Assembly (NCBI RefSeq): GCF_019703515.2
Contig: NC_059385.1
Location: 32,722,501-32,786,500, forward strand
Reading direction: 5' to 3'
Source of the DNA: Myxocyprinus asiaticus
Lineage: Eukaryota; Chordata; Actinopteri; Cypriniformes; Catostomidae
DNA length: 64,000 nt
Shown: piece after piece, positions 8,847-39,142 of the stretch
How positions within the stretch are numbered: the first letter of the stretch is position 1
Layout of the letters: every line of letters starts with the position of its first letter
Made by a program: the position numbers and the translations under genes
Notes under the pieces: model-generated
What the model was told of the DNA's origin: nothing
Seen by the model: only the letters and a program-made list of their open reading frames with translations
Databases searched by the model: none

Positions 8847-8863
8847 CAGGGCATGATCTGAGA

Positions 8864-9648
8864 CTAAGATATTTCCAATTGAGCAATCAACAACAGATGA
8901 AATGAGGGATTTGGATATATAAAAAAAAAATCTATTCTAGAATAAATCTTATGGACTGATGAAAAACATTTATAGTCCCTACCAGATGGGTTCAAAAGTC
9001 TCCAAATAAGACCAAGATTTTTACACATCCTGTGAAGCATCAGTGTTGCTCTAGGGGGTTTACACACTTTTGCTTCACTGTGATCAAGGACTGAGTCCAT
9101 CAAAAGATTAGTCTCCTCCCGATATTATATCATGAGGGGTGCCAGCGGCTTGCATCATCTATAAAAAAGCCCTGATCATCAGCGTTAGGTGCGTAAATAT
9201 TAGCCAAAATCAAACTTTGCCCTTGAATTTCAGCTAAAACAATAATGACTCTCCCTAATTTATCATTAGTTTGTTTAAGACATTTGAATTGTAGATGTTT
9301 ATTAATCAATATAATGACTCCCTTGCTGTTACTTGAGCCAGCACTAAAAAAAACATGTCCACCCCATATCTTCTCAAATTTTTCAGCTTCCTGCGGGGAG
9401 CGATGTGTTTCTTGAAGAAACACAATATCATATTTCTTACGTTTAAGAAAAGTAATAACCTTCCTTCTTTTTATGGGGTGCCCCAACCCATTTACATTCC
9501 ATGTGGAGAGAGATAGTACACTCATGTTAACATTTGACATTTTGATATAGTAGAAAATAAAATTGTGTGTCAAAAACAAAATTATACAGACCACATTCCC
9601 CATTAGTGAAACAATTAAACCCCGAACGTCCCCCTTTGAACAAAACAA
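8864..9648 (-). pseudogene. L1 ORF2 endonuclease domain (copy A)
   Basis: This is the N-terminal apurinic-like endonuclease of ORF2, which nicks the genomic target. The motifs are STWNVNGL near the start, FLQETH, and NIYAPN, which are the standard blocks of LINE endonucleases. The natural start is probably the methionine just before SVLSLSTWNV, near 9526. The frame breaks at about 9130 and the remainder (9103-8864) is in another frame. Copy B has lost this domain, so this is the only endonuclease of the family in the window. Confidence 0.8.
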
Positions 9649-10186
9649 ACGTGCGCATTAACCCCGCGCACGAAAGCGCCAACCGGCGACAATCCCTCTA
9701 AACTCAAAATGTCCATGAATGCCCACGAGCCCCCACGACAACTTTGCCATCAGATTGCTCAATTTTGCCTCACAAATTTGTGAGGCAAAATTACATAACA
9801 GAAAATATTTGTAAAATAAACCCCAGCCAATAGGAAGAATGAACACAAAGAACGTGTAGATTAATTCACAGAACTGTCTCAAAGGTGTGATCTTCCACAA
9901 AACAAATTCCAGCTGATATAAAACCATTAAGATTCCTCGGACAGACAAACAAATGTACAGTGAGCCAACTGTTATGAGTTCAGCGGATGACATAATCATT
10001 CCAATGTCCCGTAAAAATACTCAACAAAACAAACTCCAGCCAGCAGGAGGAATAAGCACGAAGAACGAACAGATTAATCCACAGCTGTTTCAAAGGAGTG
10101 TTATTCAATAGAACAAGCTCCAGCCACTAGGCGGAACCAATACAAAAAGAAACAAAACCGGCATCCCGGTTCCCCGGATGGTCAAG

Positions 10187-10980: not shown

Positions 10981-11650
10981 GAAGAACTCATCTTTACCCT
11001 TGTAAAAGTGTCTAAAGGTTGTTGTTTTTTTTCTCCTTCATTCACAGTAAGAACTGCTCTATTGGGATGGTGCTGCCTCTCTTTTATACTTGTTTTATTA
11101 AAGAAAGACATGTATTGCTAATGCAAATATAGGTGTTGAGTGATATGTTACTACAACAGGAGGATTAGACAATGGACAAAAGAATAATTAGAGGCACATC
11201 AATGTGTCACAGGTGTGAATGGTTTACAGACTGCTGATCCATCCAAACATTTACATTTCTAGCATTTGTCATGTGTCCCTGCTTTACAAACTAGATAAAA
11301 TCAGCCTCCAAAGGGCACTTTAAAGGGAGAACAATCATAGTAGCCACAATAATCATGCTGTCGGATTGCTTCAAACTGAATTTCCAATAAAAATGATTTA
11401 AAAGCGAGTTCTGAATTAACTTTATTTTGGAGCCCCACACCTTTCAGCCATCCAAAGCTCTCACAGTGGATGGTAAAGTCTTTGAGGGAATGGCATAGGG
11501 ACAATTACTTCAGAATAAAATGCATCGTTGTTGTTGTAGCTCATCTTCTCTGCTTTGTGTTGCGTTCGACTTGCTGGTTAAATACATATTGCGTGGAACC
11601 TGTTCTTCCGGAGTATACGCAGAACGTTGCTATTCCTAGCCGCACCCATA
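10981..11650. other. Spacer between L1 copy A and the CACTA-like element
   Basis: AT-rich sequence with no recognisable protein, RNA gene or repeat boundary. It ends where the TGGGTT/AACCCA-rich terminus of the next element begins. Confidence 0.4.
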
Positions 11651-12208
11651 CACCTAATTTGGGTTGTTTTGCAACCCATGGCTTGGTCAAATATGGGCAA
11701 ACCCAACCGTGGGTTATTTTGACCTAGCATGTTGGGTTGTACAACCAACCCAACTCTATGGGTTGATTGTCTAACCCATCTTATGGGTAGTGATAATTTT
11801 TGGCTGGGTTGCAACAACCCAATGTGTAGGTAAAAGGGTTTGAAAGGACCATATTAGTATTTTCTGCAGTTTTTGTGAATTTATAACTCAGGGGTACTTT
11901 GCATTACTGCAGAAAGTATTTCATAGTTTTATATTTTACTACCTTACATTATTGTAACTATATACAGACAAAAAATAGAAAGCATACTTCATAGAGAAAG
12001 CATATTTTCATTCTCAATTAACAATAAAACAGCATATAAACAACTCAATTCATCCAATTTCTGTTCACAAATCTTCAAAACATTTCATAAATAGCTTTGC
12101 TTCAACAGTACATAAACGATACAACAATAAGGTTAACAAGAGTGGCAAAAGAACACAGTGGAACAAGTATAAAAATGCATTATCAGCCAACAAATGTTGT
12201 GGTACTGC

Positions 12209-12511
12209 TTAGCATGACAAATAACCACACAGCAGTCTTATTGAAGGGGATACTGTTCCTGGGAGTTTGTAGACAATGGTCTGCAGAAACTCCCACACTG
12301 GTGCGCACTGCTTTGGGAAATTAATGTCCAAAACATAAAAAAAATGTTTAAAGCATATGTCCACAGCACCAAGTAGAGTGTTTTGCTGTAGTGCCTGTCT
12401 GCCAACAACAACAAAGGCTTGATGGCACTGACTGTTGTCTCCGAGGCCAAGGACAAAGGGGAAGGGTTTAGCAATCTCAGCCTCCCAAGTTTTCAACCAT
12501 GTTGGTCCCAA
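12209..12511 (-). pseudogene. SAM gene exon 10, C-terminal block
   Basis: It begins LGPTWLKTWEAEIAKPFPFV, continues with QAFVVVGRQAL and VDICFKHFFYVLDINFPKQC, and ends after WEFLQTIVYKLPG and LLCGYLSC at a stop. This is the signature C-terminus of the family. The expected acceptor position reads AACCGG; an AG would need one substitution. The preceding intron is enlarged by an LTR and a Tc1 relic. Confidence 0.75.
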
Positions 12512-12689
12512 CCGGTTAAAAACAGAATAAAAACTCAGAATGCATGAGAACATACAACACACTATACATGATTGATGCAGCATTATTATACAAAAATCAA
12601 TCATCAGCTGACTCAAATTACCTTCTACTTTAATTTGCATAAACATAGTCTTTTTTTCCATCACCTTGTCCATCATTCCATATACCCTG

Positions 12690-12824
12690 TCTCTTCATGC
12701 CATTAACTCCCTCTGTCATTTCAGATCCTGCCACTCCCCCCTGCCCTGCAGTAACCCCAGTTTTCCTGCTCCCTGCATCACCTACCTGCACACCTGTCCC
12801 TCATTTCCTAATCACCACCCTACA

Positions 12825-12862
<38 letters not shown>

Positions 12863-13929
12863 AGCAAAAAGTTTCCGTTTTTCAGGACACTGTATTTTAA
12901 AGATAATTTTGTAAAAATCCAAATAACTTTACAGATCTTTATTGTAAAGGGTTAAAAAAGAACATGCACCTGTGGAACGGTCAGCCCTGGTGAGACAAAA
13001 CCACGACTCGTCAGTGAAGAGCACTTTTTGCCAGTCCTGTCTGGTCCAGCGAAGGTGGGTTTCTGCCCATAGGCGATGTTGTTACCGGTGATGTCTGGTA
13101 AGGACCTGCCTTACAACAGGCCTACAAGCCCTCAGTCCAGCCTCTCTCAGCCTATTGCGGACAGTCTGAGCACTGATGGAGGGATTGTGCATTCATGGTG
13201 TAACTCAGGCAGTTGTTGTTGCCATCCTGTACCTGTCCCACAGGTGTGATATTCGGATGTACCGATCCTGTGCAAATGTTGTTACACGTGGTCTGCCACC
13301 GCAAGGATGATCAGCTGTCCTTCCTGTCTCCCTGTAGTGCTGTCTTAGGCGTCTCACAGTACGGACATTGCAATTTACTGCCCTGGCCACATCTGCAGTC
13401 CTCATGCCTCCATGTAGCATGCCTAAGGCATGTTTACGCAGATGAGCAGGGACCCTGGTGTTTTTCAGAGTCAGTAGAAAGGTCTCTTTAGTGTCCTAAG
13501 TTTTTATAACTGTGACCTTAATTGCCTACCGTCTGCTAGCTGTTAGTTTCATAATGACCGTTCCACAGGTGCATGTTCATTAATTGTTTATGGTTCATTG
13601 AACAAGCATGGAAAACATTGTTTAAACCCTTTACAATAAAGATCTGTAAAGTTATTTGGATTTTTACAAAATTATCTTTAAAATACAGTGTCCTGAAAAA
13701 GGGACATTTCTTTTTTTGCTGAGTTTATATACACACATACCAGCCCATTCCTTTTGTTCTTTGACCTTGCCTGTTCCTGATTCCTGTCTGCCTGTTCCTT
13801 GCCTGAATTGTTCACCTTCGCTGACTGAACACCTGTTGATGATCTATAGTAAAGTACTTTGTTTGATCTTACTCGCCTGTCTCAGAGTATTGCTTTTGAG
13901 TCCTGTTCTGATTCTGAGCTGTGACAAGT
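12690..13929 (+). mobile_element. Probable solo LTR split by a Tc1-like insertion
   Basis: 12690-12859 and 13728-13929 read together as one LTR-like sequence: C-rich U3-type text, a (CA)n tract, then CCTGTTCCTGATTCCTG, a TAAAGTA signal near 13850 and a 3' end GAGCTGTGACA. No coding sequence flanks it, so it is likely a solo LTR of a gypsy- or BEL-type element. It lies in the last intron of the SAM gene. The left end is uncertain. Confidence 0.45.
12860..13727 (-). mobile_element. Tc1-like element, internally deleted
   Basis: Terminal inverted repeats of about 100 bases begin CTCAGCAAAAAG at the left and end TTTTTTTGCTGAG at the right. A second inverted pair, GAACATGCACCTGTGGAACG with its reverse at 13555-13578, lies inside. 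The transposase is on the minus strand: 13420-13205 encodes MRTADVARAVNCNVRTVRRL, the helix-turn-helix region. The frame then decays and reaches the first catalytic aspartate (LFTDES) near 13020 before the right-hand two thirds of the gene is lost. The same family is common in salmonid and cyprinid genomes. Confidence 0.9.
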
Positions 13930-14044
13930 AAAGCATTTGACACTTTGCCCAAGGTAGTTTGAGATGAGTATTGATGTATTTAGCCATTTTAGGTTGCTGT
14001 TAGTATGGTTTGCAAAGTGATGTGTGCAGTACTACATTACTTAC

Positions 14045-14172
14045 ATGCTTGAATTCAATGAAAGACTTCACATTTTCTTCCAAATTTGGTTTGAACATTT
14101 TCTTCCCACTTTTGTAGACAGGGGTTGGCAAGATCACAGGAAGCAGTCTAAGTGCAATATCATCTTGGGCTT
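14045..14172 (-). pseudogene. SAM gene exon 9
   Basis: The acceptor is CTGCACAG and the donor AAGCAT|GTAAGT. The frame is open and encodes ALRLLPVILPTPVYKSGKKM and then VKSFIEFKH, a familiar block before the C-terminal exon. No lesion was seen. Confidence 0.75.
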
Positions 14173-14272
14173 CTGTGCAGATTAATATTTTGTATCATTT
14201 TGTATAATTTAGTAATTTTATTGTCATTTATACTTAGCAACAACTATCAGCTCTATGTTTTCTCAACTGTAC

Positions 14273-14417
14273 CTGGAGGCAAATTGTCTATGTTGGAGTG
14301 AAGCTCCTGAGCCTTCCTCTCCTGGCTGGCAAAGTGCAGGATTTTGTCTTTAAAACTCAAGGTCTAAGTTTCAAATAGCCTCTCTGCATGGAACAACACC
14401 GAGAAGTCTTGTGAAAT
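14273..14417 (-). pseudogene. SAM gene exon 8, with in-frame stop
   Basis: The acceptor is CATTTTCAG and the donor CCAG|GTACAG. It starts ISQDFSVLFHAERLFET and then meets TAG where the family normally has tryptophan (TGG). The frame resumes with TLSFKDKILHFA. The stop looks like a single G to A change. Confidence 0.75.
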
Positions 14418-14798
14418 CTGAAAATGACAAATCAGTAGTGCATTAACTTCCAGTTAAAAACTTCAAAGGCAATCCCCTGTCTTCAGCCTTTATTGAAAGT
14501 GTGTTTAACCCATTGCATAGCTGTGCAGCTGCACAAATAGAAGAGGCAGTTTTCTATTGTTATAGCCCTTCACTTATGATGATTTCATAATTTGCATTGT
14601 GCGACGATGTCATGGGTGTGTTTACATTCTGTGGAGGACAGGTTGAAACGCTATGCAGAAATGCTGTGCACTGTAGCAAAGTGAATAAAAATACAGGCAA
14701 TGCCACATGTGTAACTGTTTTGCTGTGTAATGGGCGTAACACTGACAACCAAAAGGGATTTGGACTTTCTGAACAAAGATGCACAGATTTGGACCTAC

Positions 14799-14992
14799 CA
14801 TGCCTGGGGTATCAAGGAGTCGAGGGAATTCACAAGTTATCTCCTCAATAGATTTACCCCCGTTATCCCTTATCCAATTAGCCCTGTGGATGGCTGTTTC
14901 CTTCATGTATTCAGCAACTTGGTTAGCTGGCCACATATTGTTTTTGAGCCATTCTGCAAGTTGTACTGCCCTATCAGACGAAATACTTGGCT
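14799..14992 (-). pseudogene. SAM gene exon 7
   Basis: The acceptor is TTACTTGTAG and the donor GGCATG|GTAGGT. The frame is open over 194 bases and includes VQLAEWLKNNMWPANQVAEY, a HRANWIRDN segment and EFPRLLDTPGM. No lesion was seen. Confidence 0.8.
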
Positions 14993-15074
14993 CTACAAGT
15001 AAAACAAAACATTTTCAACAGATTTTCAAACAAGCATTTTAAACAAGCTATCATTAAACTGTATTTACAGATAA

Positions 15075-15770
15075 CCCATACACAGTTGTGGAAAAAGTGT
15101 TCAGATTCTTAAGTAAAAGTACCAATAGAGTAACTATTACAAGAAAAAGTCCTGCATTAGGGTATTTCAATTGTTAGCAGCAAAATGTAGTTAAAGTATT
15201 GAAGTAAAAGTTTTTCTGATTCTATATGACTAATGACATTAGATTATTTATACTGAAGCATCAGTGTGTAAGCAGCATGTTACTGTTGTAGCTGCTGGAG
15301 GTGGAGCTAGTTTGAACTACTTTATTTACAGTTTTGTATACATGGACACCAGACAAATCTGAGGGGTTGTGAGATGATTAATGGGAGAGGAATGAAGTTC
15401 TGATACACAAATCTGTTTTCAGTTTTTGAACTTTTTCTCTAATCTTTGATTTTTGGTGAGATATTGGATCATTTAAACATTTATTGAAATGAAACCATGT
15501 GACAAGTTTAGAGGGAAAAATCACTATTTGGTGGAGCTGTTAACAACTCATAGACATCTGAAATGTGACCCTGACTACACACTGCTTTCTGTAAGACATC
15601 AGAAGCCAAAAAGGTTGGAAACCACTGGATTAATCTTTAACAATGTGTTGTATTTTAAAGCTTGTTACATTATCCATTGTGTAAAATCTTCATCTTAAAA
15701 GTAACTAGAAGCTAAAGCTGTCAAATAAATGTAGTGTAGTAGAAGTACAATATTGTCTCTATCCAAAGTT
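15075..15770. repeat. Teleost interspersed repeat with AGTAAAAGTA motifs
   Basis: The left part has GTGGAAAAAGTGTTCAGATT and AAGTAAAAGTACCAATAGAG, the recurring text of a widespread fish non-autonomous DNA repeat. The right part ends with AAAGTAACTAGAAGC and AGTAGAAGTACAATA. It has no coding capacity. It lies in the SAM gene intron between exons 7 and 6. I do not know its formal family. Confidence 0.45.
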
Positions 15771-16061
15771 TAAAAAATGCACCCACCAACACCTCAAAAC
15801 TCATTGAGTTGTATATTATTCAGCATGTAACTCATCCTCCCACCACAAACTGTGGTTTTTACATTTCTGTTTGTGTACGGACAGAGCCAGGCTAGCCATT
15901 TCCCCTTGCTTACACTCTTTGTTAAGCTAAGCTTACATGTTGTGACTCAAACTTTGTAATTATATCAATCTTATCATGTCATTCAATGAAATTTAGAAAA
16001 TAAGGGCATTTCCCAAAATATAGAACTTTTATTTTTAGTGAAAGAAATCTAAACTTTTTAC

Positions 16062-16218
16062 CTGGTATAACCAAGATGCTGCTCATGGCTTGTTGAGCAT
16101 CATCCTTCTCATGGTTTGTGCCATTTTCACGGTGGATTCTCTTCCTGACATTTCTTAAGCGTTCCTCCAGGAAGCCAGTAGCTGGACGATATCTATGCCC
16201 TGGGCTGTACCATGCCTC
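16062..16218 (-). pseudogene. SAM gene exon 6
   Basis: The acceptor is TTTTTAG and the donor CCAG|GTAAAAAG. It has 52 codons plus one base with no lesion, beginning EAWYSPGHRYRPATGFLEER and ending SSILVIP. The aromatic start followed by GFLEERLRNVR is characteristic of the fish family. Confidence 0.8.
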
Positions 16219-16330
16219 CTAAAAACACAGAATACGTTAGTATCCTGTGAATGTTACAAGGCCATAGCTCCCTTTGTTCCTTTTAGAATGAGCAGCTTTA
16301 GAAATGTGGCTATAAGAAACTTGTACTCAC

Positions 16331-16414
16331 ATAGCCTTTAACCTGGGAGTCCTTCAGACAGGGAAACTGCTCAAAAAGAGATGCAGCCAACAATATCTTT
16401 TTTCAGCGGATGGG
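16331..16414 (-). pseudogene. SAM gene exon 5
   Basis: The acceptor is TTCTAG and the donor TAT|GTGAGT. The encoded text includes AASLFEQFPCLKDSQVKGY. A run of six A near the start leaves the frame one base short. Seven A would read through cleanly from exon 4 to exon 6. Confidence 0.7.
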
Positions 16415-16711
16415 CTAGAAAGAATTCATGCAAAGGTCATACATCATTACAATACAGATATGAAAGTATTTTCAGCAGTAGACAGACATAATCCAATATG
16501 GGAGCTCATGCAGCTGCCCCAAGTCAAGTTGGCTGCACTAATACAGTGGTCTTATTGATACATGATAAAGCCTGTTTTGTATTTGTTTGTTTCAGTGACA
16601 ACTCTAACATGAAAGAACCCTTAAAATGGCCAAAATTCACTACCTATCACAAAAATGTATATGCAATAAAATATACTTTTCATTACTGGCACTTTAAAAA
16701 TACATACATAC

Positions 16712-16851
16712 ATTTCTCCAAAGCGGTCCATAAGGTGTGAAACTAGTATTCTGACCATGCATCTCCATTGTTTTATAGATAATGTGCTCTGCTCAAGACT
16801 GGCCAAAAGGTCCTTGCCCTCGAGGCTGCTCATTAGGACCTCACAAATATT
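16712..16851 (-). pseudogene. SAM gene exon 4, conserved helical body
   Basis: The acceptor is TTTACAACAG and the frame begins NICEVLMSSLEGKDLLASLE, followed by a stretch containing RCMVRILVSHLMDRFGE. This is the recognisable early body of the family. The donor is GAAAT|GTATGT. The length is 46 codons plus two bases. Confidence 0.7.
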
Positions 16852-17615
16852 CTGTTGTAAAAGTCATAGAAGCATTATTTTCAAAACCAGCTGCAGATCC
16901 TAAAAATGTTGAAGTATCTATGCAAAAGAACCAGAACTACTAGATTGCTTCATTGACCTTGCCCCTTTATTTACATACTTGTATTATTTAGATCCACTTA
17001 GAATATTGACTAAAGACAACTGCTAGTACAAAGAACAATAAATAGTTCCTGTGTCTATCCTCTTGCTGCTAATAAGCATTTCAATAGCCAATGTAAAAAT
17101 CATTCCAAAAAAGCTATTCTATGAAAACAATACGGTGACCAAGCATTATGCACACCACATAATTTTTATTGGACACTCTTCTTATCAACTACCTCTAGTT
17201 TAAAGTTCAGTTGTTTGAAGTCTAAACCAAACTATTTGCAAAACCATCATATTGTCCAGAGACACATATTCAACACACAGAAGTCAGTCATGTGAAAGAA
17301 AAAAAAATTAGTCTACTCGCTGTACTCTGATATGGTCTGTTTAATGCTACTCCTCTTACTCCATTGTGAGCTGTGTTAATATGAAAGGGAAGTTGCAAAT
17401 AACTTTTTGTATGGGAGTTTGGGCATATCCCTGTTCCAGAGTTTCATATTTGGCAGTTGATTAATGTTTTTACTCACCCACTTAATAAAATAAGTGTATA
17501 AATTAGTTAGTAAAACCATGGTTAGTTTTTGTAGGGGTGACTAAACTGTGTTGCACCTGAATGCGCTTCATTTTATGTAAATTAAATTGAAGTTTAGAAA
17601 GGCAAAAACACATAC

Positions 17616-17717
17616 TAATGTTGGCTGTTCCTCCACTGGCATACGAATTTCTGCTTCACGTTGTTGGTCCACAGGAGGTCCAGTTGTTGATCCACTTTGG
17701 GTCTGCTCTGGACTTGG
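17616..17717 (-). pseudogene. SAM gene exon 3, linker
   Basis: 34 codons in phase 0, beginning PSPEQTQSGS and ending VEEQPTL. It is rich in Q, E, P and T with no domain. The acceptor follows TTATATAAG and the donor is ATTA|GTATGTG. It is placed by phase and order rather than by conserved motifs. Confidence 0.55.
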
Positions 17718-18046
17718 CTTATATAAAAGTGCATGGAAACAAAGGTTACCTACATGGACACTGTTTCATTTCTAAAATATAGCTACAATATGACTCATTT
17801 TTACTACATGTGATAGTGCTAGGATGTGACCTTAATTTGTGAATAGTGTAGTATTGTAACATCTGCTACATATACTTACACAGAGCATTGCAAAACACAC
17901 ACACACACACTCAAAGGTGAATCACAGATTGTCTTATTCAATAAAAAAGCTTGCATCTCCAGTATTATGTACAGGTGTGTGAACAGCCCCCAAAAAAAAA
18001 AAAAAAAAAACCTGTAACCTGGAAGTTCAAGTTGAAAAGGGGACAT

Positions 18047-20516
18047 TTAAAACAGCCGGTAGCGTATGGACACATAGTGATTGTTGTCCCTTTCCTTGTA
18101 TGACCTCACAACATGGAGAGGATGGTAATCATCAATGGAGTCAACATCAACAGAGTCAGTGGCAGTACTGGGAGAGACACAGCATGCAAAATAGTGTCTT
18201 TCAAATCCTACTGTGTCCCATTTCCTAACAATGATCTTGATGATGGACTCAAAAACCACAATCATCTGGATTGTTCCAAACTGAGGTTCACCATCTGGAG
18301 AATGAGACACAAGGAGAGTCATCCCTGGCCGATATTCTGTCTCTTTCCACTTCACCCAAGAGGGTATGTACACTTCAGTAAATAATGGAGTATGCTCAAA
18401 TCTGTGCTTTTTTTTTTGACCTGATCAAATTCGTCAATGGAAGAAAGTGGAGTGCTGCAACCAGGACCAACTTCTTTGTGATGTGTAAATATGTGATCAG
18501 ACAAAACACTGTAACACAGCAACATCTGATGTCTGAAGGCCATTGTTTTACAAATGTTGCGGAAGTTGCATGTGACATGGTCAAGCCTTTTAAAAAAGTC
18601 ATGCTTGGCCTCAAACGCATAGACCATTAGTGCACCAGAGGGCCCAGTCTCCTTATGGCACCAGGATAATGCAACATGAAATTATGCTTTGGCTTAAGAT
18701 GTCTGTCAGGGAACAGTTCTAGGAAGAGGCTGTGGTGCTCATCAATGAGACATCTAAGAAATATCACTGCTTCTTCTGTTAAGGCTGGAGAAAAAATGTA
18801 TTCCATGCAGGTCAACAAAAGCAGCAGGAGCTCCCAGTGTTTGTTCCCCTCAGGAATGAGATTCCCTATCATCAAAGGGAGTAGCCTTAACAGGCACCAC
18901 ATTTGTGCTGCTGTCTGCCTCATGGCACTGTCAGGTGTTTTTAGTTCATGGGGTTGGATTGTGGATGGCTTGTAGGCACTGTCACAGAAGCCATGATCAT
19001 AACTTGTAATTCGGTAATTAACCTGGTCTAAGGTTATTACCTTCTGTGAGATAAGAGAGCCTAGCACTAATTTAGGTTCATACGCACCTATCCCTTCTAG
19101 GATATCATGCATGACATCTTGTCTGTCAAATGGAAGTATTTCAGGTTGTTCAAAATGCTCTGTCTTTTTAGGCCAGTTTCTGTTGGATTACTTTGCACCA
19201 GATCTGAAAGATGGTTGCCCTTATTCCTAAGTAGTGAAGGATCATCTATTGTTTGTGCTCGCATTACTTGTTTCTTCACATGGCACCAGTGGCAAACGCT
19301 GTTCCCAGAGAAGCTCTCTGTATAGCCAAGGATTGCATTTAGCCCCAAATTATCCCCACAAATTTGGACAACCCAAACCTTCAATGTGCCTTTGAAGTGT
19401 GCTGTGTCTACTTCCACGCCATTTGTTTCCAAGTCCTTGATATCATCAACAATTGACTTCAGGACAGCATCTATACCATAGGTTTTTGGCATCATCTGCC
19501 TTATACACTGCCAAAAGAAAATGAGAATCAAGACTTGAAAGGCACTCTGGAGGAAGACATTTAATAGTGAAATAGATGAATCCCAACTTGTGGACTGAGG
19601 TCTTGGAGCCAAGTGGATTAACCATTTCACAGTCATCATTATACAACAGAAGAGGAAAAGAGGGCTCGGTGGGAAAAACAGAACTTGTTTTCAACACAGT
19701 GGTATCATCCAGACTGTTCGAGTCACTAATACACTCCATTATCTTCTCCATTGTCCCTGGACTCTCAAGAATGAGTTTCAGTAATGGCAGCAAAGGAATC
19801 CTTTGGAAAGTATCCTGCACTGCCACCTGTTTTACAGTCCCTGTCTGTGAGTCCCTTTGCTGGGTGTATGAGACACCAGGGAGAGGCTGCTCTACTGGCT
19901 GAACTAGGTACCCTGTTTGAGCAAAGTATTTCATTTGCTTGTGTTCAATCTCCAAGCACTGAAAGCATTTTGCATTTGCAAAATGCTGATTCAGCTGTTG
20001 GCCATCAGGAGTCTCACTTTGGCCAATCCTTTGTAAGAATGGCATGGTCTGTCTTTGTAAACCACCAACAATATCAAAGACCAGACTAGATGTTTGCTGA
20101 ACTACTGAGTTGACAGTAGATAAGGTCATAGATGATTTTTCCCTCAGCTTTGCTAAAAACAAGGCCACTCTGTCTGTGATAGTGTTCTGCTCTAACTCAT
20201 CCCATCCCATGTCATCATTAGCAGCATTGTCTTCCTCCTCGTAGGGCTGACTGTCAGAAGTCAGAGGTCTGCTGTCAGTCAGTGTCCCAGGCAGGTGTGT
20301 TGGCTGGATGGATTCTTCTGCTTCAGCCTCTACATGGTGCTGGAGCAGGTGTCGCTTAAATGATCTGCTGTAATTAAATGTCCTGTGACACCCAGCTTGG
20401 CCACACTTAAAATAACTTGATGAACTATGTACATTATGCACTCTCCTTAGGTGAGAAAACAAAAAGCGAACATTGGTCCCAACAGTCTTTTTGCACTTAA
20501 AGCAGATATATCCCAT
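18047..20516 (-). pseudogene. C2H2 zinc-finger plus transposase-like protein (possible CACTA TNPD/tnp2 relative)
   Basis: The start is the ATG at 20516 (MGYICFKCKKTV). Two zinc fingers follow: one with CFKC and later H...H, and a classical one C-x4-C-x12-H-x4-H (about residues 35-60). A long acidic and polar linker comes next, then a transposase-like body with CHWCHVKKQ, MHDILEGIGAYEPKLVL, HYPGAIRRLGPLVH and FEAKHDFFKR. The HDxLEG and HYP...GPL blocks resemble animal CACTA/tnp2-type transposases; this is from memory and unverified. The unit is intronless and is broken by about four lesions: frameshifts near 19485 (run of five A), near 19120 and near 18611, a stop at about 18627 and a shift at the run of ten A near 18415. 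It lies wholly inside the SAM gene intron, same strand. Confidence 0.7.
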
Positions 20517-20541
20517 CTTAAAAGTAAACTTCTTCACTCAC
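20516..20541 (-). promoter_or_regulatory. Splice donor of SAM exon 2 directly before the zinc-finger start codon
   Basis: The donor GTGAGT occupies 20541-20536 and the zinc-finger ATG is at 20516, only 19 bases further on. Splicing at this donor would remove the zinc-finger/transposase frame and join exon 2 to exon 3. Failure to splice would leave that frame as the next open frame in the same transcript. Confidence 0.5.
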
Positions 20542-20638
20542 AACAAGCAGCTCTAAAAACGTAGGCCTATCTTTGGTATCATTGTTTTGAGTGAGATTTC
20601 ATCAAGCAGCAGGAGAGTTTCTTTATCGATGTGTTCAT
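20542..20638 (-). pseudogene. SAM gene exon 2, second half of the SAM domain
   Basis: The acceptor is CTTTACAG|ATGAAC and the phase joins exon 1 as GAT. It encodes DEHIDKETLLLLDEISLKTM then IPKIGLRF, a good match to the second half of a SAM domain. A TAG appears at 20555-20553 after a run of five T. One more T would give an uninterrupted frame that ends in phase at the donor TTGTT|GTGAGT (intron starts at 20541). Confidence 0.7.
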
Positions 20639-20993
20639 CTGTAAAGAGAGGAAGAGAGAAGAGATGAGACGAGAATTAAAGAGAGGAATGTATTTTAATT
20701 TCAGGAAAGCATTGCAACATATAATTTATTGTATACTGCCTTTTTGGTTTTTCATTGTCCTGTTTTTTTCAGACTTGTTTTTTTCACTCAGTGTTTTAGG
20801 GATAGGGTCAGAGCGCAATGTGGCACTTTTGAAAACTGGCTTACCCAGAGCGCAGTGGGTTACAATTAACAGAGGATCAGGAAAAAAAAATGCTTTGATA
20901 TGCCTCATTATAAATCTCACAGATAACTTTGGATATTACAAGATAGATAAACAGAAGTGCATTTTCATTTTATCTAGATAAAATAAAGTTTAC

Positions 20994-21060
20994 CTTTAAA
21001 GCTTGGTATCAGGACTTCCAAGTTACATTCTTTCAGCTTCTCCTGGACAAAATTATCCAT
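20994..21060 (-). pseudogene. SAM gene exon 1, first half of the SAM domain
   Basis: It opens with ATG and encodes MDNFVQEKLKECNLEVLIPS plus three residues. The donor reads AAAG|GTAAAC. The exon has 22 codons plus one base. A possible upstream splice acceptor (CTTTCCACAG, ending near 21083) suggests a 5' untranslated exon further right. Confidence 0.75.
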
Positions 21061-21289
21061 TAGCTGTTATTCTGCACCCTGTCTGTGGAAAGAAGGACAA
21101 AGAGGCCGAGCTGTGAGTTTTAAGTGGGCATCACATATATCTTAGAAAAAAGCATTTAACATGAGACAAAAGGGTCTGTATATCAAACAGATGAACATAT
21201 GATACAATACACTTAACTTGACTTTGAGCACACATGCACATTTTTTATTATCCATGACTGACAAAAAGACAGCTTTGCACATGTAGGGC

Positions 21290-21720
21290 TTTACTGGTTG
21301 TTTAGATCAGTGTTACTATCATAAATAATGAATAATTATTTCTTTAGTTATTAATTAATATTTAAATTAATTAATTGAATCTAACTCATTAAAACCTCAA
21401 ATGGGGCTCCAGTAAATGTAGTGTGCTGCATTTAGGAGCAGGTTTGGTTATTAGCAATAATTAATAATTATCAAAGATAATTATTAATTATTAAAATCAA
21501 TAGAACATTGATGAGAATAATGTTAGCTTTTTTAATCCTTTAAATCAACAATTATCAAAGATAATCGATGTTAACATCAATGAAACATTAATTAAAATTA
21601 ACACTAGCTTATTGATCATTCAAATTCAACAATCATCAAAGATAATTATCAATTATCAAAAATCAATAGAATATTAATAAGGATTAACATTGACGGGGCA
21701 CCACCCTGGAATCAGGGACT
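21290..21720. repeat. AT-rich repeat with TTAATAATTATC units
   Basis: The interval repeats AATTATCAAAGATAATTAT and AATCAATAGAA(C/T)ATT(G/A)AT with small changes at least three times. It leads into GGGGCACCACCCTGGAATCAG, text that recurs in fish LTR-type repeats. It may be the 3' part of the long LTR that follows. Confidence 0.4.
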
Positions 21721-23113
21721 AATAACCAGATAGTATAACAGTCTCAATATTAGATTGTTTTCTTAGGAAAATCGACATCCGAAGAATATAGATTTTCAGG
21801 AAAAAAACAATGAATGAAGGCTTGAATCCGAGCACTGTCATCCCGTCAGCATGACACAGGCGTATGCAAAACAAACCAAAACAATTCTTTTTGTAATATA
21901 AACAAAGTTTATTTATGCAGTAATATCAATTAAGAATTAATACAATGCAGTCAATAAACTTCCGACTTACAACTACAAACTAAACAGTGATATGATTAGA
22001 TATGGAAATCAAAATAATCCTATAACACATGAGGGTGTGTGTGTGTGTGAGAGCGAGTGAGTGTGTGTGTGTGTGTGTGTGTGTGGTTAGTACGAAAGAG
22101 AGAGAGAGAGAGAATTAAGTGACGGCCCTAAAGCCAATTTCGCGATCGTGGGAGAGAAAGCAGCTGTTAGTTTATCACTCAGAGACGCGTGGATGGCTCG
22201 TATACAGTCCTGCGTTTTTTTATTCTTTAATGGATAAACTCAGTTTGCCGGTCTCACCCGCGATGGTGGAAAATGTACAACAGTCCAATTTGGTTGGACC
22301 ACAATACAACAAATCTCATTCGTGATAATTAGTACCCTGAGTATTAATAATGAGCGGACATGGTGGTCCGTAAACTGTACAAGCAAAAACCTTGAAACAC
22401 AAGAATAACACACTATAATATTCTATCTCTGCCCAGATGTATACCTCTTACTTGAATCGTATGAGGACGTAGAATGTGTGTTCATCCGTCCTTTAACTCT
22501 GACCCGGTTCCTTGAGGCTCGGGTGATGACGGGAGGCCGGCTGCTGATTCTCGGCGGGCTGGCGGAGAACTCAGAAATGTCGACTTGATTGAAGATGGAA
22601 GAGAAATCTTTAATCTCTTCACTTCTGCAGGCAAACGGATGAAGATGCGGATTGCTCGGCGGTCTCCTTCGGATCCGTTAGAGTGTTTGGTTGAACACAG
22701 AGTAATCTCAACTCGTCTAGCAAGATGGAGATTGTATGGCCACAGTTTCAAGTCGGACGTTACTTCCTTGTGCCACGAAGCTGCACCTGAGAGCAGCGAT
22801 GAGCTGCGTCTACACCCGGCAAGCAAAGCTGCTGGTAGCAAATCCCGGAAGCATTTCAAAGGTATTTCTACTCCTGATGATGTCATGGTTTGAGGGACGT
22901 TCTGTTGTGTGCCTCATCCAATAGGAGTTGAGAGTTTGATCCTTTAGTGAGCAAGGCTTCATGGGATTTGTAGTCTGTTTTGGACTCCCTTTGTTTGATT
23001 TTGGCGCGATTTTTATTAGTAAGATTTACGACTTGGTATGTGGGGGCTGAGTTAGGTTTTACGACTGTGTAAGGCCTGCCTTTGTCTTCTATCTGAATAC
23101 ATGAGGCCCAACA
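21721..23113 (-). mobile_element. LTR-like repeat A, head-to-head with repeat B
   Basis: Read on the minus strand, it starts TGTTGGGCCTCATG at 23113. For about 740 bases (to 22370) it is a diverged copy of 23166-23949 in the opposite orientation. It continues through (GT)n and (GA)n tracts (22031-22115) toward 21721. TG at the start, a TATA-type box in the partner and no coding capacity fit an LTR. The left end is not defined. Confidence 0.5.
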
Positions 23114-23165
23114 TACATAAGTGCACCTTCTAAAACTACAGATATGTCACACAGCAACTCACTCA

Positions 23166-23949
23166 TGTTGGGCCTCATGTACTCAGATATAAGACAAAGG
23201 CAAGCCTACATACAGTCATAAAGCCTGACTGAGGCCTACATACAGTCATAAAGCCTGACTACAACAACCGCGCCAAAATCAAACAAAGGGAGTCCAAAAC
23301 AGGCTACAGATCCCATGAATCCTTGCCCACTTTACACCTATGTGTGAAATTCTGAAGTATCAGTCTCTCAACTCCTATTGGATGAGGTGCATGACAGAAC
23401 GCGCCCCTCAACCATGATGTCATCGGGAGTATAAAAACCTCGGAGATCTTTCTGGGCGTTGCTTCCAGTGTCAGTATGTGCTGTGTCTAGTTGCAGCACT
23501 GCTGCTCCCAGGTGTAGCCTCGTTGCCCAAGGAAGTAACGTACGTACTTGAAACTTTGGCCATACAACCTCGCTGGACGAGTTGAGATTTCTCTGTGTTC
23601 CACCGAGCACCCTAACAGATCCTAAGGAGACCGCCGAGCAATCCGCATCTTCACCCATTTGCCTGCAGAAGTGAATAAAGAAGATTTCTCTTCCCTCTTC
23701 AACTGAGTCGACTTTGCTGATTTCTCCGGCAATCCACCGATAATCAGCCGCCGTACCGCCCGCCGACAGAGCGTGGAAACAGCCCCCCATCATCACCGGA
23801 GCTTCAAGGAACCGAGGTGGAGTCAAACGACAGACGAACACACATTCTACCCACGTCCTCATGTGATTCAAGTAAGAGGTTTATGTCTGGGCAGAGATAG
23901 ATTATTATAGTATGTTATTCTTGTGTATCAAGGTTATTGCTTGTACAGT
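23166..23949 (+). mobile_element. LTR-like repeat B with TATA box
   Basis: It starts TGTTGGGCCTCATG at 23166 and has an inverted CCAAT (CTATTGG) near 23375 and TATAAAA at 23430-23436, followed by a transcribed-looking region. A 29-base unit containing CATACAGTCATAAAGCCTGA is duplicated at 23203-23262. The match to repeat A ends at about 23949, where an L2 fragment takes over. Confidence 0.5.
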
Positions 23950-24360
23950 TGGTTTCGTGCAGCTACAAAATCGTATATCAGAAGACTACAAGGACAGTTC
24001 GGATTGCTGAGAGTATTATTGGTTGCCCCCTGCCCTTCCTTCAAGAATTCTACACTTCCAGAGTAAGGAAAAAGGCTGGAAAAATTACTCTGGACCCCAC
24101 TCACCCTGTCCACTACCTTTTTGAACTGTTGTCTTCTGGCCGACGCTTCAGAGCTCTGAGCACCAGAACCGTCAGGCACAAGAACAGTTTTTTCCCACAG
24201 GCTATCCATCTTATGAACAGTTCAAACTGCCCCACTGAGCAATAATTATGTGCAATACACAGTTTAGTCTTTTTATATTTATCCAACACATCCTACCTCT
24301 TCTGCCATTACATTCCCTTGCATCTGTATATAATATACCGATGTATATTTGTATTTGCAC

Positions 24361-24422
<62 letters not shown>

Positions 24423-24600
24423 TATTGTGTATTCTATATATACTTTATTTTCTATTCAATTTGTATTTGTTTGTTTTTTTATTATTTTGTATTATTATCT
24501 CTGTCTTGTTGTATTGTTTGTGAACTGGAAGCTTCTGTCACCAAGACAAATTCCTTGTATGTGTTAGCATACTTGGCAATAAAACTCATTCTGATTCAAA
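23950..24600 (+). mobile_element. L2/Rex1-type LINE, 3' fragment (copy 1)
   Basis: It encodes the last part of the reverse transcriptase protein across shifted frames: the text near LDPTHPVHYLFELLSSGRRF and RALSTRTVRHKNSFFPQAIH matches the end of copies 2 and 3. It then has the 3' UTR with a (TA)n tract at 24362-24418 and a tail with ACTTGGCAATAAAACTCATT. It is severely 5'-truncated, as LINEs often are. Confidence 0.85.
24362..24418. repeat. (TA)n microsatellite in L2 copy 1
   Basis: An uninterrupted TA run in the 3' UTR of the LINE. The corresponding place in copy 2 also has TA repeats (41948-42004), while copy 3 has GTGTATG repeats. Confidence 0.95.
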
Positions 24601-24612
24601 TTTAAGCATCTA

Positions 24613-24853
24613 CATTGTAAAAAAAAAAACTTGAATTCTACTTAATTCCATTATTACTCAGCAAAATTAACTTATGTGAAGTCTCAGTTGTTGTTGGCTT
24701 TCGCAAGAGGGAGTTCTGAGCGGGAAGCGCGTGAAGAACATTACATAAGCATCACAACCCAACAGTTAGGGTTAGAGTAAATTACCCAATACAACTGGCC
24801 CAACTCAAGCAACCTTATGGTTTGGTTAAAAATTCCACCCAGCATTTTTAGTG
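24613..24853. mobile_element. Possible short non-autonomous CACTA-like element
   Basis: The left end CATTGTAAAAAAA and the right end CCAGCATTTTTAGTG (inverse CACTAAAAATGCTGG) resemble CACTA-type termini. The body has no coding sequence. The two ends are not clear copies of each other, so this is tentative. Confidence 0.25.
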
Positions 24854-24897
24854 CTCCAAGCGACAAAATCTCTGACAATGTGAACGAGGCTTATGGT

Positions 24898-25075
24898 ACG
24901 TTTCCACTGGAGCGGAAGAAATCTGCTCATCGTTGCTCGCAACACTCCTGCTCTTCATGCTTGTTCGTACCGCTGTCAGTCCCACAGTCCACCTCACGAG
25001 CGTGGCGCTCGACTTCCATAGGAATTAATTGAAAACACCAGCTCACCTCCGCTCAAAATGTGCCAGTGGAAGCGT
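24898..25075. repeat. MITE with ACGTTTCCACTGG ends
   Basis: ACGTTTCCACTGG at 24898-24910 and CCAGTGGAAGCGT at 25063-25075 are inverted with one mismatch. The GC-rich interior has no reading frame of note. It resembles short hAT-like repeats of fish. Confidence 0.5.
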
Positions 25076-25600
25076 TGTTGGTGCTACGGATGCTTTCAGT
25101 GGCAGCAGGCATCTTCATTGATATATATATATATAAAGTGTTTGCTTTTGACGCGACACTCACGTCAGGTGTTTATCGACTTTGAACTAAATGACTCACA
25201 TAAGTCACATATTTCAGATGAAAACGTCGAATTTTGACCAAATGAGACATTTGAATCATTCAAAAAGCAGAATAACAAACTTAATCACGATCCAGTGGGC
25301 ATTACAGACTAGCAAACCAAAGCTGACGAAGCTAGTGTTACTTTTAATAACAGTTAATGTCATGTGAACTGTCCTATTTTGCATACTTTTGCATTTTCTA
25401 GTATACAGTAATAGTTTTATAGATAAAAAACATTGATACAAACCTTGTTTCTCCAAATAAATCAACAATTTGTTCTCGCTGAAAACCACTCCCTCCTGAG
25501 GCGATTCAAAAAGCCAGCGCGTCAGGTAACTAAAACGTTGAGTTGATTTGAGACAGGAGTTGGGCTGATTCGTCGGGGTGGGGGAGGGGTGCACTGTTTC
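25076..25600. other. Non-coding stretch before the CACTA right terminus
   Basis: AT-rich sequence with a short TATATATA tract near 25120. No gene or repeat boundary was recognised before the AACCCA-rich terminus. Confidence 0.35.
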
Positions 25601-25849
25601 AACTGTCAGTGAAAATGACCCAACCTCTAACCCAGCAACTGGGTTACACAAAAACTACCCAACACTGAGAAAATAACCCAATAAAATGACCCAAACGGCT
25701 CAACCCAGTGTTTGGGTTGAAAAAAGAACCCAGCATTTTTTAGAGTGCAGGCACTATAAATAGGTGCCTTTCTTTGCAGGCTCGCTGCAACACGTGCCGT
25801 CAGAGGGAGGAGCCGGTCAGCGGAAAAAACTCCTCATTGTTGAGTAACT

Positions 25850-26953: not shown

Positions 26954-28327
26954 TTAATGGTGCACGTCTTCAGCTCCAAGGGAGGTGGAAGGCGCTATGT
27001 GCAAGCGATACACCCGGCCAGCTATCCTGGGCTTATCCACTTGTGTTGCATGCACTACCTGGGATGAAACCGGTTCCACCCGGAGATTGTAGAACCTTGC
27101 ACAGGTGTTGGGTGTTGCCCAGCCCGCTGCTCTGCAAATGTCTGTTAGAGAGGCACCCCTGGCCAGGGCCCAGGGAGCCATTACACCCCTGGTAGAATGG
27201 GCTGGTAGCCCTACCGGGGGCGGCATGTCCTAGGCGACATATGCCATAGTTATGGCGTCAGTGAGCCAGTGGGTGATCCTCTGCTTGGAGACAGCGCTTC
27301 CTTTCTGCTGTGCACCAAAGCAGACAAAGAGCTGCTCAGAGATTCTGAATCTCTGCGTGCGATCCAAATAGATGCGTAAAGCACGCACCGGACACAGCGA
27401 CGACAGGGCTGGGTCTGCCTCCTCCTGGGGCAGCACTTGCAGGTTCACCACCTTGTCCCTAAAGGAGTGGTGGGAACCTTGGGCACATAGCCCGGTCAGG
27501 GTCTCAGGATCATGTGAGAGTAACCTGGACCGAACTCCAGGCACGTTTCGCTGACAGAGAATGCTTCCAGGTCACCTACCCTCTTGATGGAAGTGAGCGC
27601 AGTCAGGAGGGCAGTCTTCAAGGAGAGTGCCTAAAGCTTGGCTGACTGCAAAGGCTCAAAGGGGGTTCTCTGTAGACCCTGAAGAACTACAGAAGTCCGA
27701 TGAGGGAACGAGGCGCGGTCTGGAGGGATTCAACCTCCTGGTGCCTTTTAGGAACCTGATGATCAGGTCGTGCTTCCCTAAGGACTTACCGTCGACTGCG
27801 TTATGGTGTGCTGCTATGGCGGCAATGTACACCTTCAAGGTGGAAAAGGACAGCCTCCCTTCCAACCTCTCCTGCAGGAAGGAAAGCACTGATCTGACTG
27901 TGCATCTCTGGGGGTCTTCCTGAAAGGAAGAACACCACTTAGCGAACAGACGCCACTTCAAGGCATACAGACGCCTCGTAGAGGGGGCCCTAGCCTGAGT
28001 GATCGTGTCTACCACCGCAGGTAGGAGACAGCTTAGGTCTTCTGCGTCCCGTCCAGGGGCCAGACATGGAGATTCCAGAGGTCTGGCCATGGGTGCCAGA
28101 TGGTGCCCCTTCCCAGAGAAAGAAGGTCCTTCCTCAGGGGAATTCGCTAGGGGGGAGCTGTTGCGAGGAGCGTGAGGTCCGAGCACCACGTCTGGGCGGG
28201 CCAGTAGGGTGCTACCAGGATGACCTGCTCCTCGTCCTCCCTGACCTTGCACAGGGTCTATGCAAGCAGGCTCACTGGGGGAAATGCATATTGCACATGC
28301 CAGGGGGCCAGCTGTGTGCCAGCGCAT
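26954..28327 (-). pseudogene. DIRS tyrosine recombinase
   Basis: The enzyme would insert the circular DNA copy. The N-terminal core-binding part is at 28327-27656 (APSTRRLYALKWRLFAKWC, then STLKVYIAAIAAHH). The catalytic part continues in other frames: 27544-27230 has FRDKVVNLQVLPQ and CPVRALRIYLDRT, and 27226-26954 has AHSTRGVMAPWALARG, the H-x-x-R box, then GWATPNTCARFYN with the nucleophile tyrosine. The known catalytic set of R, HxxR and Y is therefore largely visible. At least two frameshifts and a stop between segments break it. Confidence 0.8.
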
Positions 28328-29759
28328 CTATGCCGAGGGGGGCCTCGGTCAGGGCATACCAGAGCAGGCAGTGGGGAGGATTTTTGAGAGGCGAACAGGT
28401 GCACCTGTGCCTGTCGAATCGACTCCAAATCAGCTGGACCACCTGAAGGTGGAGTCTCCACTCTCCCCTGAGGGTAACCTGTTGTGACAGCGCATCCGCT
28501 GTAGTGTTGAGGTTGCCCGGGATGTGAGTGGCTTGCAGTGACTTGAAGTGCTGCTGACTCCAGAGGAGGAGACGGCGGGCATGTTGTGACATACAACGAG
28601 AGCGCAAACCACCTTGGCGGTTGACATATGCTACCGTTGTCTTGTTGTCTGTCTGAACTAACATGTGCTTGCCCTGGATCAACGGCCGAAACCTCTGCAG
28701 GGTGAGCAGAATTGCCAACAACTTGAAGCAGTTGAAGTGTCAATGCAGTTGCGGACCCGTCCAGAGGCCGGTGGCTGCGTGCCCATTGCAAACAGCGCCC
28801 CAGCCCGTTTTGGGGGCGTCTGTCATGACCACGACATGCCTGGGGACCAGTTCTAGAGGAACACCTGCCCGTAGGAACGAGAGGTCGGTCCAAGGGCTGA
28901 AAAGATGGTGACAGACCGACGTAATGGCCATGCGGTGTGTCCCGTGGCGCCATGCCCATCTCGGGACTCGAGTCTGGAGCCAGTGCTGAAGTGGCCTCAT
29001 ATGCATCAACCCGAGCGGGGTGGCCACTCTCTGAAAAAGTTTCAGTGGAACCGCTGTTCCCTGTTTAAACGCCTTCAAACAGGCCAGCACCGACTGGGCG
29101 CATTTGTTCGTAAGGCGCGCCGTCAAGGAGACTGAGTCCAACTCCAAACCGAGAAAAGAGATTCTCTGAACCGGGAGGAGCTTGCTCTTTTCCCAGTTGA
29201 CCCGAAGCCCTAGTCGGCTGAGGTGTGAGAGCACCAGGTCCCTGTGTGCGCACGACACGTCTCGAGAGTGAGCTAGGATTAGCCAGTCGTCAAGATAATT
29301 GAGAACGCAGACCAGCCCTCGCAATGGATTGGAAAGCGCAAGCCATGCGTCCAAGTTCCGCGCAAGGGGGACCAATGGGACAACATCATCGGACGTACTG
29401 GCAGGTGGGGTCTCGCAGCGGGGCGGAGCTCGAGGTGCCACACCACGTCGTGGCCATGCTGGTCTAAGGACATTGAAGCACTTACCTGGCTCCTTGTGAC
29501 CACCCCCGGAACAGCCTGGGATGGGGGAGGAAGAGGTCTGTCCTTGTGACCCATGGAGACTGTCACATCGGGGGCGGATTTGTGCCGCAGCTCGGCGCTC
29601 AGGGGCGGGAGACCGCCGCTGGAGCGCCAAACCTGCCAAATAGAGTGGTGGACGGTGGTCATGATGACGGCCATACACACCGGATACGTGATCCAGGGAA
29701 CAAAGAAACCGCTCTTGCTGAGCTCTTGAGTACTGCAGCCACTTAGGCATGCAGCGCAA
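28258..29759 (-). pseudogene. DIRS reverse transcriptase and RNase H
   Basis: 29759-28740 carries the polymerase active site CVLNYLDDWLILAHS, followed by LGLRVNWEKSKLLP and SFLGLELDS. The palm and thumb are therefore present, but the sequence just upstream (29350-29480) is shortened and out of frame, so part of the fingers domain is lost. RNase H follows: VVMTDAPKTGWGAVCNGHA at the end of this frame, then 28721-28272 with LVQTDNKTTVAYVNRQGG. The RNase H frame overlaps the region leading into the recombinase, as is usual for the family. Confidence 0.8.
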
Positions 29760-30620
29760 TTAAATGCAAAAGGTAACAAAAAGATGGAGATTTGCTTACC
29801 AGCTCCAGAGCAGCGGGTTTTGTTGTCCCTGGGTCACCCGTCTCAAGGGCACTTTGAAGCCTTTCACGGGTTCTGGGTGGCCGCGAGACGGGTAGTGTCT
29901 GCTTCCCGCGGTGGGCTCCACACCGGGGCCAGGCCGAAAGGGCGGGCTGCGGCGGAGCCATTGCAGTCACCGCAGGGGGACGCTCTTGGCGATGAGTAGA
30001 TGGGGTGCGGGATCTTGAGCCACGCCGGGGCAAGATATGCCAGCTAGCATCCATCTACTGCTCTACCATCAAAAACTGCTGGACAAAGTCCTCGACAGTG
30101 TCGCCTAATAGGCCCGCCTGGGAAATGGGGGCAGCAAGGAATCGTGTCTTGTCGGCCTCACCCATCTCGACCAGGTTGAGCCAAAGGTGGCGCTCCTGGA
30201 CCACTAGTGTGGCCATCGTCCGCCCGAGAGACCGCGCTGTGACCTCCGTCGCTCGGAGGCAAGGTCGGTCATCAAGTGCAGTTCCTGCATCAATCCAGGG
30301 GTGGAACTACCCTCGTGCAGTTCCTTTAGCGCCTTGGCGGACTTGCAGGAGAGCCATGGCGTGCAGGGCGGAAGTGGCTTGTCCAGCAGCACCGTAGGCC
30401 TTGGCCGTCAGAGACGACGTAAACCTACAGGCCTTGGACGGGGGCTTTGGGTGGCGGCGCTCTGCGGGCATAGGTGCACCGCGAGCGCCTTTATCCACGG
30501 GGGATTGCCGAATAGCCCTTGGCCGCCCCACCATCGAGGGTAGTGAGGGCGGGGAAGCAGAAAAGATCGGGACGGGGCAGTAAAAAGTGCCTCCCGCGAC
30601 CTTGTCAGCTCTTCATGCAC
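29743..30620 (-). pseudogene. DIRS gag-like protein
   Basis: The segments are in shifted frames. 30392-30204 includes KALKELHEGSSTPGLMQELH, a block typical of fish DIRS gag, and 30054-29743 includes MDASWHILPRRGSRSRTPS followed by a basic, proline-rich tail. The protein is presumed structural for the particle. It has lost its N-terminus and has at least two frame changes. Confidence 0.65.
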
Positions 30621-35500: not shown

Positions 35501-35627
35501 GGCAGCTTATGAGGAGGTGTCATCGGGAAGACAGGGTGGCTTGGATACGTTTATACGGAAATGGGGCAGGTATTTGGAGTTTTTGGAGGGCTCTCGGTTG
35601 GGGTGTGGAGAGAGTAGTGTAATATAG
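32573..35627 (+). pseudogene. L1 ORF2, reverse transcriptase and C-terminal region (copy B)
   Basis: 32573-33538 carries the fingers/palm start (GKTPGPDGF, CKSYCPISL), with one TGA at about 32897. A frame change follows near 33535. The AFDIVE block at about 33680 runs into a TGA. GCPLSPLLF is read near 33850, and the frame from 33867 includes AHKLLLYADYILLFVS, so the second catalytic aspartate is replaced by tyrosine. Thumb sequence (NVGRWASLHLSMIGKVNVIK) continues to 34787. The C-terminal cysteine-rich region is in 34939-35627 with CWRCQSEDGYMAHVFWWC. It is inactive. Confidence 0.85.
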
Positions 35628-38399: not shown

Positions 38400-38960
38400 C
38401 TCAGTTATTATTATTCTTGGGGATTTCAAGAAAGCAAACCTCACACATGAACTGCCTAAATACAAACATCACATTACATGCCCAACCAGAGACAGAAATA
38501 TGCTGGATCATTGCTACACAACAATAGAGGATGCATATCGCTCTGTTCCTAGAGCAGCTTTGGAACTCTCTGATCATTGTCTGGTTCATCTTCTTCCAAC
38601 CTACAGGCAGAAACTAAAATCTGCTAAACCTGTAGTAAAGACTGTAATGAGATGGACCAATGAAGCAGAGTTGGAACTACAAGCCTGCTTTGACTGCACT
38701 GATTGGAGTGTTTTTGAGGCTGCAGACACCAATCTGGATGAGCTTACAGATACTGTTACATCATATATCAGTTTCTGTGAGGATATGTGCATTCCTATTA
38801 GGACTTATTTAACATACAACAACAACAACCCGTAGTTTACAGCAGAACTCAGGCAGCTTCTTCAGGCCAAGGAGGATGCTTACAGAGGTGGGGATAAAGT
38901 CTTGTACAATCAGGACAGGAACGCACTGAAAAACAAGGAAAGCACAGGGCCCAGACAGTG
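38400..38960 (+). pseudogene. L2 endonuclease end and linker (copy 2)
   Basis: The end of the endonuclease is visible: LLLFLGISRK in place of the ILGDF box, then RDRNMLDHCYTTIEDAY and [15 protein letters not shown] (the SDH box). It then runs through ETCFDCTDW-type linker text to 38835, where a TAG interrupts NNNNP. A second segment to about 38960 contains TAELRQLLQAKEDAYRG. The two halves are out of frame with the polymerase. Confidence 0.7.
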
Positions 38961-39142
38961 TTTCACCCGCATGTCTAAAATCCTGTGCTAACCAGCTGGC
39001 CCCCATCTTCACACTGATCTTAAAAAGATCACTGGGGCAGTGTGAAGTCCCATGCTGCTTCAAACACTCAATCATCATTCCTGTCCCAAAGAAACCCAAA
39101 ATCACAGGATTTAATGTCTACAGACCTGTCGCCCTGACGTCT

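Follow-up and report, generated by a model that had tools for sequence, protein, structure and literature searches.

A probable decayed CACTA/EnSpm-clade transposon of Myxocyprinus asiaticus with a transposase in an intron of a SAMD3-like gene

We analysed a stretch of 64,000 nt of the Myxocyprinus asiaticus genome (hereafter the window; assembly GCF_019703515.2, NC_059385.1, positions 32,722,501-32,786,500 of the forward strand). On the minus strand, positions 11643-25747 contain a ten-exon SAM-domain gene and a transposase nested in intron 2 of this gene (Table 1). An initial annotation had described the locus as a possible autonomous CACTA-like element of fish, with two same-strand coding units between TGGGTT/AACCCA-rich ends, and had suggested that the SAMD3-like gene could be the accessory product of the element.

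The limits of the SAM exons were derived from splice signals and from tblastn with a protein of Triplophysa dalaica (P0001). All ten exons matched P0001 in order with 38-86% identity, the 38% belonging to a match that overran exon 3. AG and GT signals border exons 1-9; no AG acceptor was present at the start of the P0001 homology of exon 10, and the start of this exon is therefore approximate. In the predicted structure, the five-helix fold of a SAM domain was found. The reading frame of the gene is interrupted by one frameshift and two in-frame stops.

The ATG of the transposase lies 25 bp past exon 2, within intron 2 (20541-17718). Both the ten-exon gene and the nested position of the transposase were as annotated. 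Compared with protein P0104, the window transposase is divided over five segments in differing frames (68-81% identity, tblastn) with one in-frame stop, and must therefore contain four frameshifts. The annotated zinc-finger and transposase frame is thus intronless, but not intact. It encodes C2H2-like zinc fingers, followed by a predicted RAG1-like DDE core and a predicted BAH-like C-terminus, both folds coming from structure models. The BAH-like domain corresponds by predicted fold to residues 688-822 of P0104, and the same fold occurs in DNMT1 and BAHCC1. To our knowledge, such a domain is unusual in a cut-and-paste transposase. The motif of the transposase core was found in all 27 aligned transposases, and E645 is probably the third acid of the DDE core. 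Both D, the CxxC and, in another frame, the E are retained in the window transposase, in which N replaces one of two H. Because of the lesions in both genes, the window copy is non-autonomous, contrary to the annotation.

TGGGTT occurs 45 times in the window on either strand, against a chance mean of 44.9. However, 10 copies are clustered in 11660-11821 (162 bp) and 6 in 25629-25732 (104 bp), whereas the densest 170 bp among 200 Markov-resampled windows held 4. The architecture of two same-strand units with a TGGGTT/AACCCA cluster on both sides was thereby confirmed, and the clusters provide subterminal short repeats at both ends on the assumption that the two arms belong to a common element. 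Read inward from 25747, the right end is CACTCTAAAAAATGCTGGGTT, of which 12 of the 13 bases agree with the terminal repeat of zebrafish CMC-EnSpm, given as CACTCAAAAAAAT in a passage of PMC11202377. An equal match was present at one further site in the window (20593, inside exon 2) and at a mean of 0.4 sites in 15 resampled windows; the match at the right end carries weight because it adjoins a TGGGTT cluster. Within the right part lies a short element (about 24612-24852) whose CACTA-type end is related, and the outer limits of the candidate transposon therefore stay an assumption; the right end of the short element aligned to the outer right end with an uncalibrated score of 39. At 60347 on the minus strand, CACTGTAAAAAATTTGACG differs by one mismatch from a looser EnSpm-type end pattern, has no TGGGTT cluster, and may be an end from a different CACTA family.

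Homologues of the two proteins were collected in separate searches. The SAM protein gave 103 relatives (best 7998 candidates scored), mostly from teleosts but also from Lingula, Apostichopus and a coral, and the transposase gave 54, among them proteins of Lingula, Nymphon and Frankliniella. One protein was common to both lists, and the resulting 156 were scanned with profile hidden Markov models built from both sets, after removal of the joined protein P0016 from the SAM profile. Both parts were present in 15 gene models, the transposase alone in 48 and the SAM protein alone in 93. The joined models occur in other fish and in a sea spider, with the parts in matching order: the SAM start precedes the transposase in five (P0016, P0076, P0103, P0145 and P0149), the SAM body follows it in 12 of the 15 (P0016, P0076 and ten others), and no model departs from this order. 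In P0149, the second SAM exon continues without a break as transposase; residues 1-401 of this protein match positions 20648-19485 of the window in one stretch with 27% identity. Two further proteins, P0052 (Poecilia) and P0146 (Cirrhinus), appeared joined by eye but were below the threshold and are outside the count of 15. In Astyanax, isoforms X1 and X2 of one annotated gene (LOC111195806) are the two products. Judged from this annotation and the joined models, the SAM protein would be a second, non-transposase product of the same element.

Including Astyanax and the window, both parts were available at 17 loci. Six with one very short part (P0016, P0095, P0103, P0133, P0145 and P0149) were excluded, leaving 11 loci for a comparison of pairwise protein distances. 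Those of the SAM parts and of the transposases were correlated (Mantel r 0.86, 0 of 5000 permutations; at least 40 shared sites in 34 of 55 pairs), also without Nymphon (r 0.80, 29 pairs, 0 of 5000). Two loci of Leuciscus chuanchicus differ by 53% in their SAM parts and by 50% in their transposases, indicating that both genes have been retained in each of two divergent lineages within a single species.

The joined models, the Astyanax isoforms, the correlated divergence and the CACTA/RAG1-type transposase core together support the SAMD3-like gene and the transposase as two products of one CACTA-like element. We therefore read the locus as a decayed copy of a DNA transposon of the CACTA/EnSpm clade, encoding a transposase and a SAM-domain protein on the same strand with the transposase in intron 2 of the SAM gene, and estimate the probability of this reading at roughly 0.86. 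Several results weigh against it. Pfam Transposase_21 (tnp2), the profile proposed for comparison in the initial annotation, was reached at E 0.01 or better by just 4 of 27 family members (best 2.6e-6), and the window piece scored 12 bits (E 0.12) against a cut-off of 28.6. The structural match of the SAM domain had no significant Foldseek E-value (best 0.35). Of the 156 models, 93 have the SAM gene alone and 48 the transposase alone, a split on which gene models are indecisive either way. Moreover, apparent joining may reflect faulty annotation, and the Astyanax isoforms are predictions. When Nymphon, the window and two close relatives were all left out, the Mantel correlation fell to r 0.53 (7 loci, 13 pairs, 216 of 5000). 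The evidence from genomic DNA on ends, target duplications and nesting comes from the window copy alone.

The left end (around 11643) is a weak point: it opens with CAC, as annotated, but no CACTNNAAAAAA repeat was found there. A target-site duplication was not evident by eye (CCG versus CAG at the assumed outer limits, the left of which is undefined). Moreover, the similarity of the two arms (24.5) barely exceeds the maximum of 300 shuffles (23.5). Together with the short related element inside the right part, these results would suit a reading in which both genes form one element, but the TGGGTT-rich ends are separate short non-autonomous elements and 11651-25747 are not the true limits. We rate this as unlikely but far from negligible: the clusters lie at plausible distances, the left one about 360 bp past the SAM stop codon, and the right end carries an EnSpm terminal repeat. 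It is much less probable that the SAMD3-like gene belongs to the ordinary host genes and that a transposase-bearing element merely inserted into its intron 2 at this locus. Such an insertion would accord with the stable-looking relatives described below, but not with the matching order in 15 joined models, the single Astyanax gene with both products, the correlated divergence, or the exon 2/transposase arrangement retained in P0149. An origin of the joined models as annotation chimeras, put together from adjacent but unrelated repeats, is scarcely credible: although several are fragmentary and P0103 is a fusion with a host monooxygenase, neither the identical order nor the correlated divergence is expected of random neighbours.

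An approximate SAMD3 query sequence retrieved 247 proteins; among the best 120, 114 were named SAMD3, from mammals (platypus to human) and one turtle, and ten records were aligned for a profile. This profile was collinear with that of the fish SAM proteins over 418 columns (hhalign 97.7%), with about 20% identity. The body alone gave 95.5% (311 columns) and the SAM domain alone 94.6%, versus 0.1-0.5% for five reversed or transposase controls. Given the value for the body, the label 'SAMD3-like' denotes homology along the protein, and by profile comparison amniote SAMD3 is a distant homologue of the element SAM protein along most of its length.

Some relatives look like host genes. Under the name si:dkey-286j15.1, one occurs in four cyprinid species (Danio, Pimephales, Pseudorasbora and Chanodichthys) with 63-83% mutual identity and, by eye, a duplicated stretch of the body. 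Another set (P0024, P0031, P0046 and P0058, with Anguilla, Conger, Albula and Synaphobranchus among them) combines a distinct conserved N-terminus with the SAM-protein body at 64-82% identity. This protein of eel, conger, bonefish and cutthroat eel is possibly a host gene made from the second protein of a transposon. SAMD3 itself likewise resembles a host gene. A transposon origin should therefore not be assumed for every SAMD3-like gene, and the annotated link between the SAMD3-like families and CACTA elements is supported with this restriction. Many fish SAMD3-like genes are nevertheless likely to encode the second protein of a transposon rather than to be ordinary host genes. In the pipefish Nerophis (P0050 and P0096), a predicted DNA-binding domain of the MADF type (PF10545) is joined to the SAM-protein body.

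Table 1. Features of the candidate element and of later insertions (window coordinates)
Feature	Position	Strand	Basis
SAM gene	21082-12209	minus	ten exons, ATG 21060, stop codon at 12209
SAM exon 1, first half of SAM domain	20994..21082	-	AG/GT; tblastn P0001 residues 1-22, 86%; ATG 21060
SAM exon 2, second half of SAM domain	20542..20638	-	AG/GT; P0001 residues 18-49, 75%; in-frame TAG near end
Transposase, intronless, ATG to TAA	18047..20516	-	tblastn P0104, family search, fold of P0104
SAM exon 3 (linker)	17616..17717	-	AG/GT; by eye, similar text in P0001 and P0103
SAM exon 4	16712..16851	-	tblastn 74% to P0001; AG/GT
SAM exon 5, frameshifted	16331..16414	-	tblastn P0001; AG/GT
SAM exon 6, ATGFLEERLRNVRKR motif	16062..16218	-	tblastn P0001; AG/GT
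SAM exon 7	14799..14992	-	tblastn 77% to P0001; AG/GT
SAM exon 8, in-frame stop	14273..14417	-	tblastn P0001; AG/GT
SAM exon 9	14045..14172	-	tblastn P0001; AG/GT
SAM exon 10, stop codon	12209..12511	-	tblastn 79% to P0001; start approximate
Right (5') end, CACTCTAAAAAATGCTGGGTT then TGGGTT/AACCCA subterminal repeats	25560..25747	-	6 TGGGTT in 104 bp; 12/13 EnSpm terminal repeat
Left (3') end region, TGGGTT/AACCCA-rich	11643..11850	-	10 TGGGTT in 162 bp; exact terminus undefined
Short nested CACTA-type element or solo end	24612..24852	.	left limit by eye; right end read inward = CACTAAAAATGCTGGGT
Tc1/mariner-like remnant, inverted ends, intron 9	12859..13724	-	92-nt inverted arms 95%; HTH_23 E 3.9e-8; type by eye
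Imperfect 1.6-kb palindrome, intron 1	22373..23950	.	self-inverted, 76%

Part of the length of the element is due to later insertions: the Tc1-like remnant, the palindrome, possibly a fold-back element, and a fragment (23950-24597) that recurs elsewhere in the window. Mobile elements are dense across the window. An open frame for a Tc1/mariner-type transposase of 326 amino acids lies at 57646-58626, with a broken relative at 45904-46718. Broken, overlapping frames at 27656-29833 contain tyrosine recombinase-like and reverse transcriptase-like text and look DIRS-type. Several frames for LINE-like reverse transcriptases lie at 6227-9657, 32900-35627 and 38930-40126 and include near-duplicates (all family assignments by eye).

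In maize En/Spm, the transposase frames lie within an intron of the accessory gene. The window element shares this nesting, here in intron 2 instead of intron 1, and its accessory protein is of the SAM type. A further likeness would be the single transcription unit for transposase and accessory protein; according to a passage of PMC1636069, the tnpA and tnpD products of Spm come from one transcription unit, interact and are both essential. The same source mentions animal CACTA relatives, including Danio, and alternative splicing of the transcripts of SmTRC1 of Schistosoma, and DeMarco et al. detected no similarity of the SmTRC1 accessory proteins to other animal or fungal elements. CACTA elements are summarised in an extract of PMC4158355 as encoding a transposase and an ORF2 (open reading frame 2) protein of unknown function, which aids excision and transposition in specific families. 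Two proteins are reported for one zebrafish element in passages of PMC11202377, which do not state the identity of the second. Its counterpart in the window element is a SAM-domain protein related to SAMD3. Transib and RAG1 are comparable by fold and motif only; the window element differs by C2H2-like fingers in front, a BAH-like domain behind and a CACTA-type right end. Targeted searches of an open-access library gave no paper linking SAM or SAMD3 to CACTA in its title or abstract opening. Animal CACTA elements with two proteins were already known; within the reach of these searches, the nested layout, the nature of the second protein as a SAM protein and the relation to SAMD3 appear undescribed.

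Gene order, homology, same-gene isoforms in the annotation of Astyanax, correlated divergence and decay of the window copy were observed, and the folds are predicted. For an intact copy we propose a likely model. A single promoter at the right end would give a single transcript, from which full splicing of exons 1-10 would yield the SAM protein. With intron 2 retained or alternatively processed, ribosomes could reach the transposase ATG. The transposase, equipped with its fingers and predicted core, would cut at the CAC...GTG ends, and its predicted BAH-like tail may contact chromatin. By analogy with maize Spm we infer a TNPA-like role for the SAM protein: it would attach to the subterminal TGGGTT/AACCCA repeats and bridge the ends of the element by contacts between SAM domains.

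Naming the probable second product of CACTA elements in animals allows many fish loci now listed as 'uncharacterized' or 'SAMD3-like' to be classed with the genes of transposons. The nested layout would be the metazoan equivalent of that of tnpA/tnpD, and the transposase is predicted to combine a RAG1-like fold with a chromatin-type BAH tail. It also provides a testable claim on the origin of vertebrate SAMD3, which may share a transposon origin with the fish SAMD3-like genes. We tentatively propose that SAMD3 descends from a transposon of the RAG1 clade (CACTA/EnSpm), namely from its accessory protein, and that the same protein was captured independently in other SAM-body genes, si:dkey-286j15.1 of cyprinids and the fusion gene of eels and bonefish. 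If true, RAG1-clade transposons would have given vertebrates host genes from their second product too.

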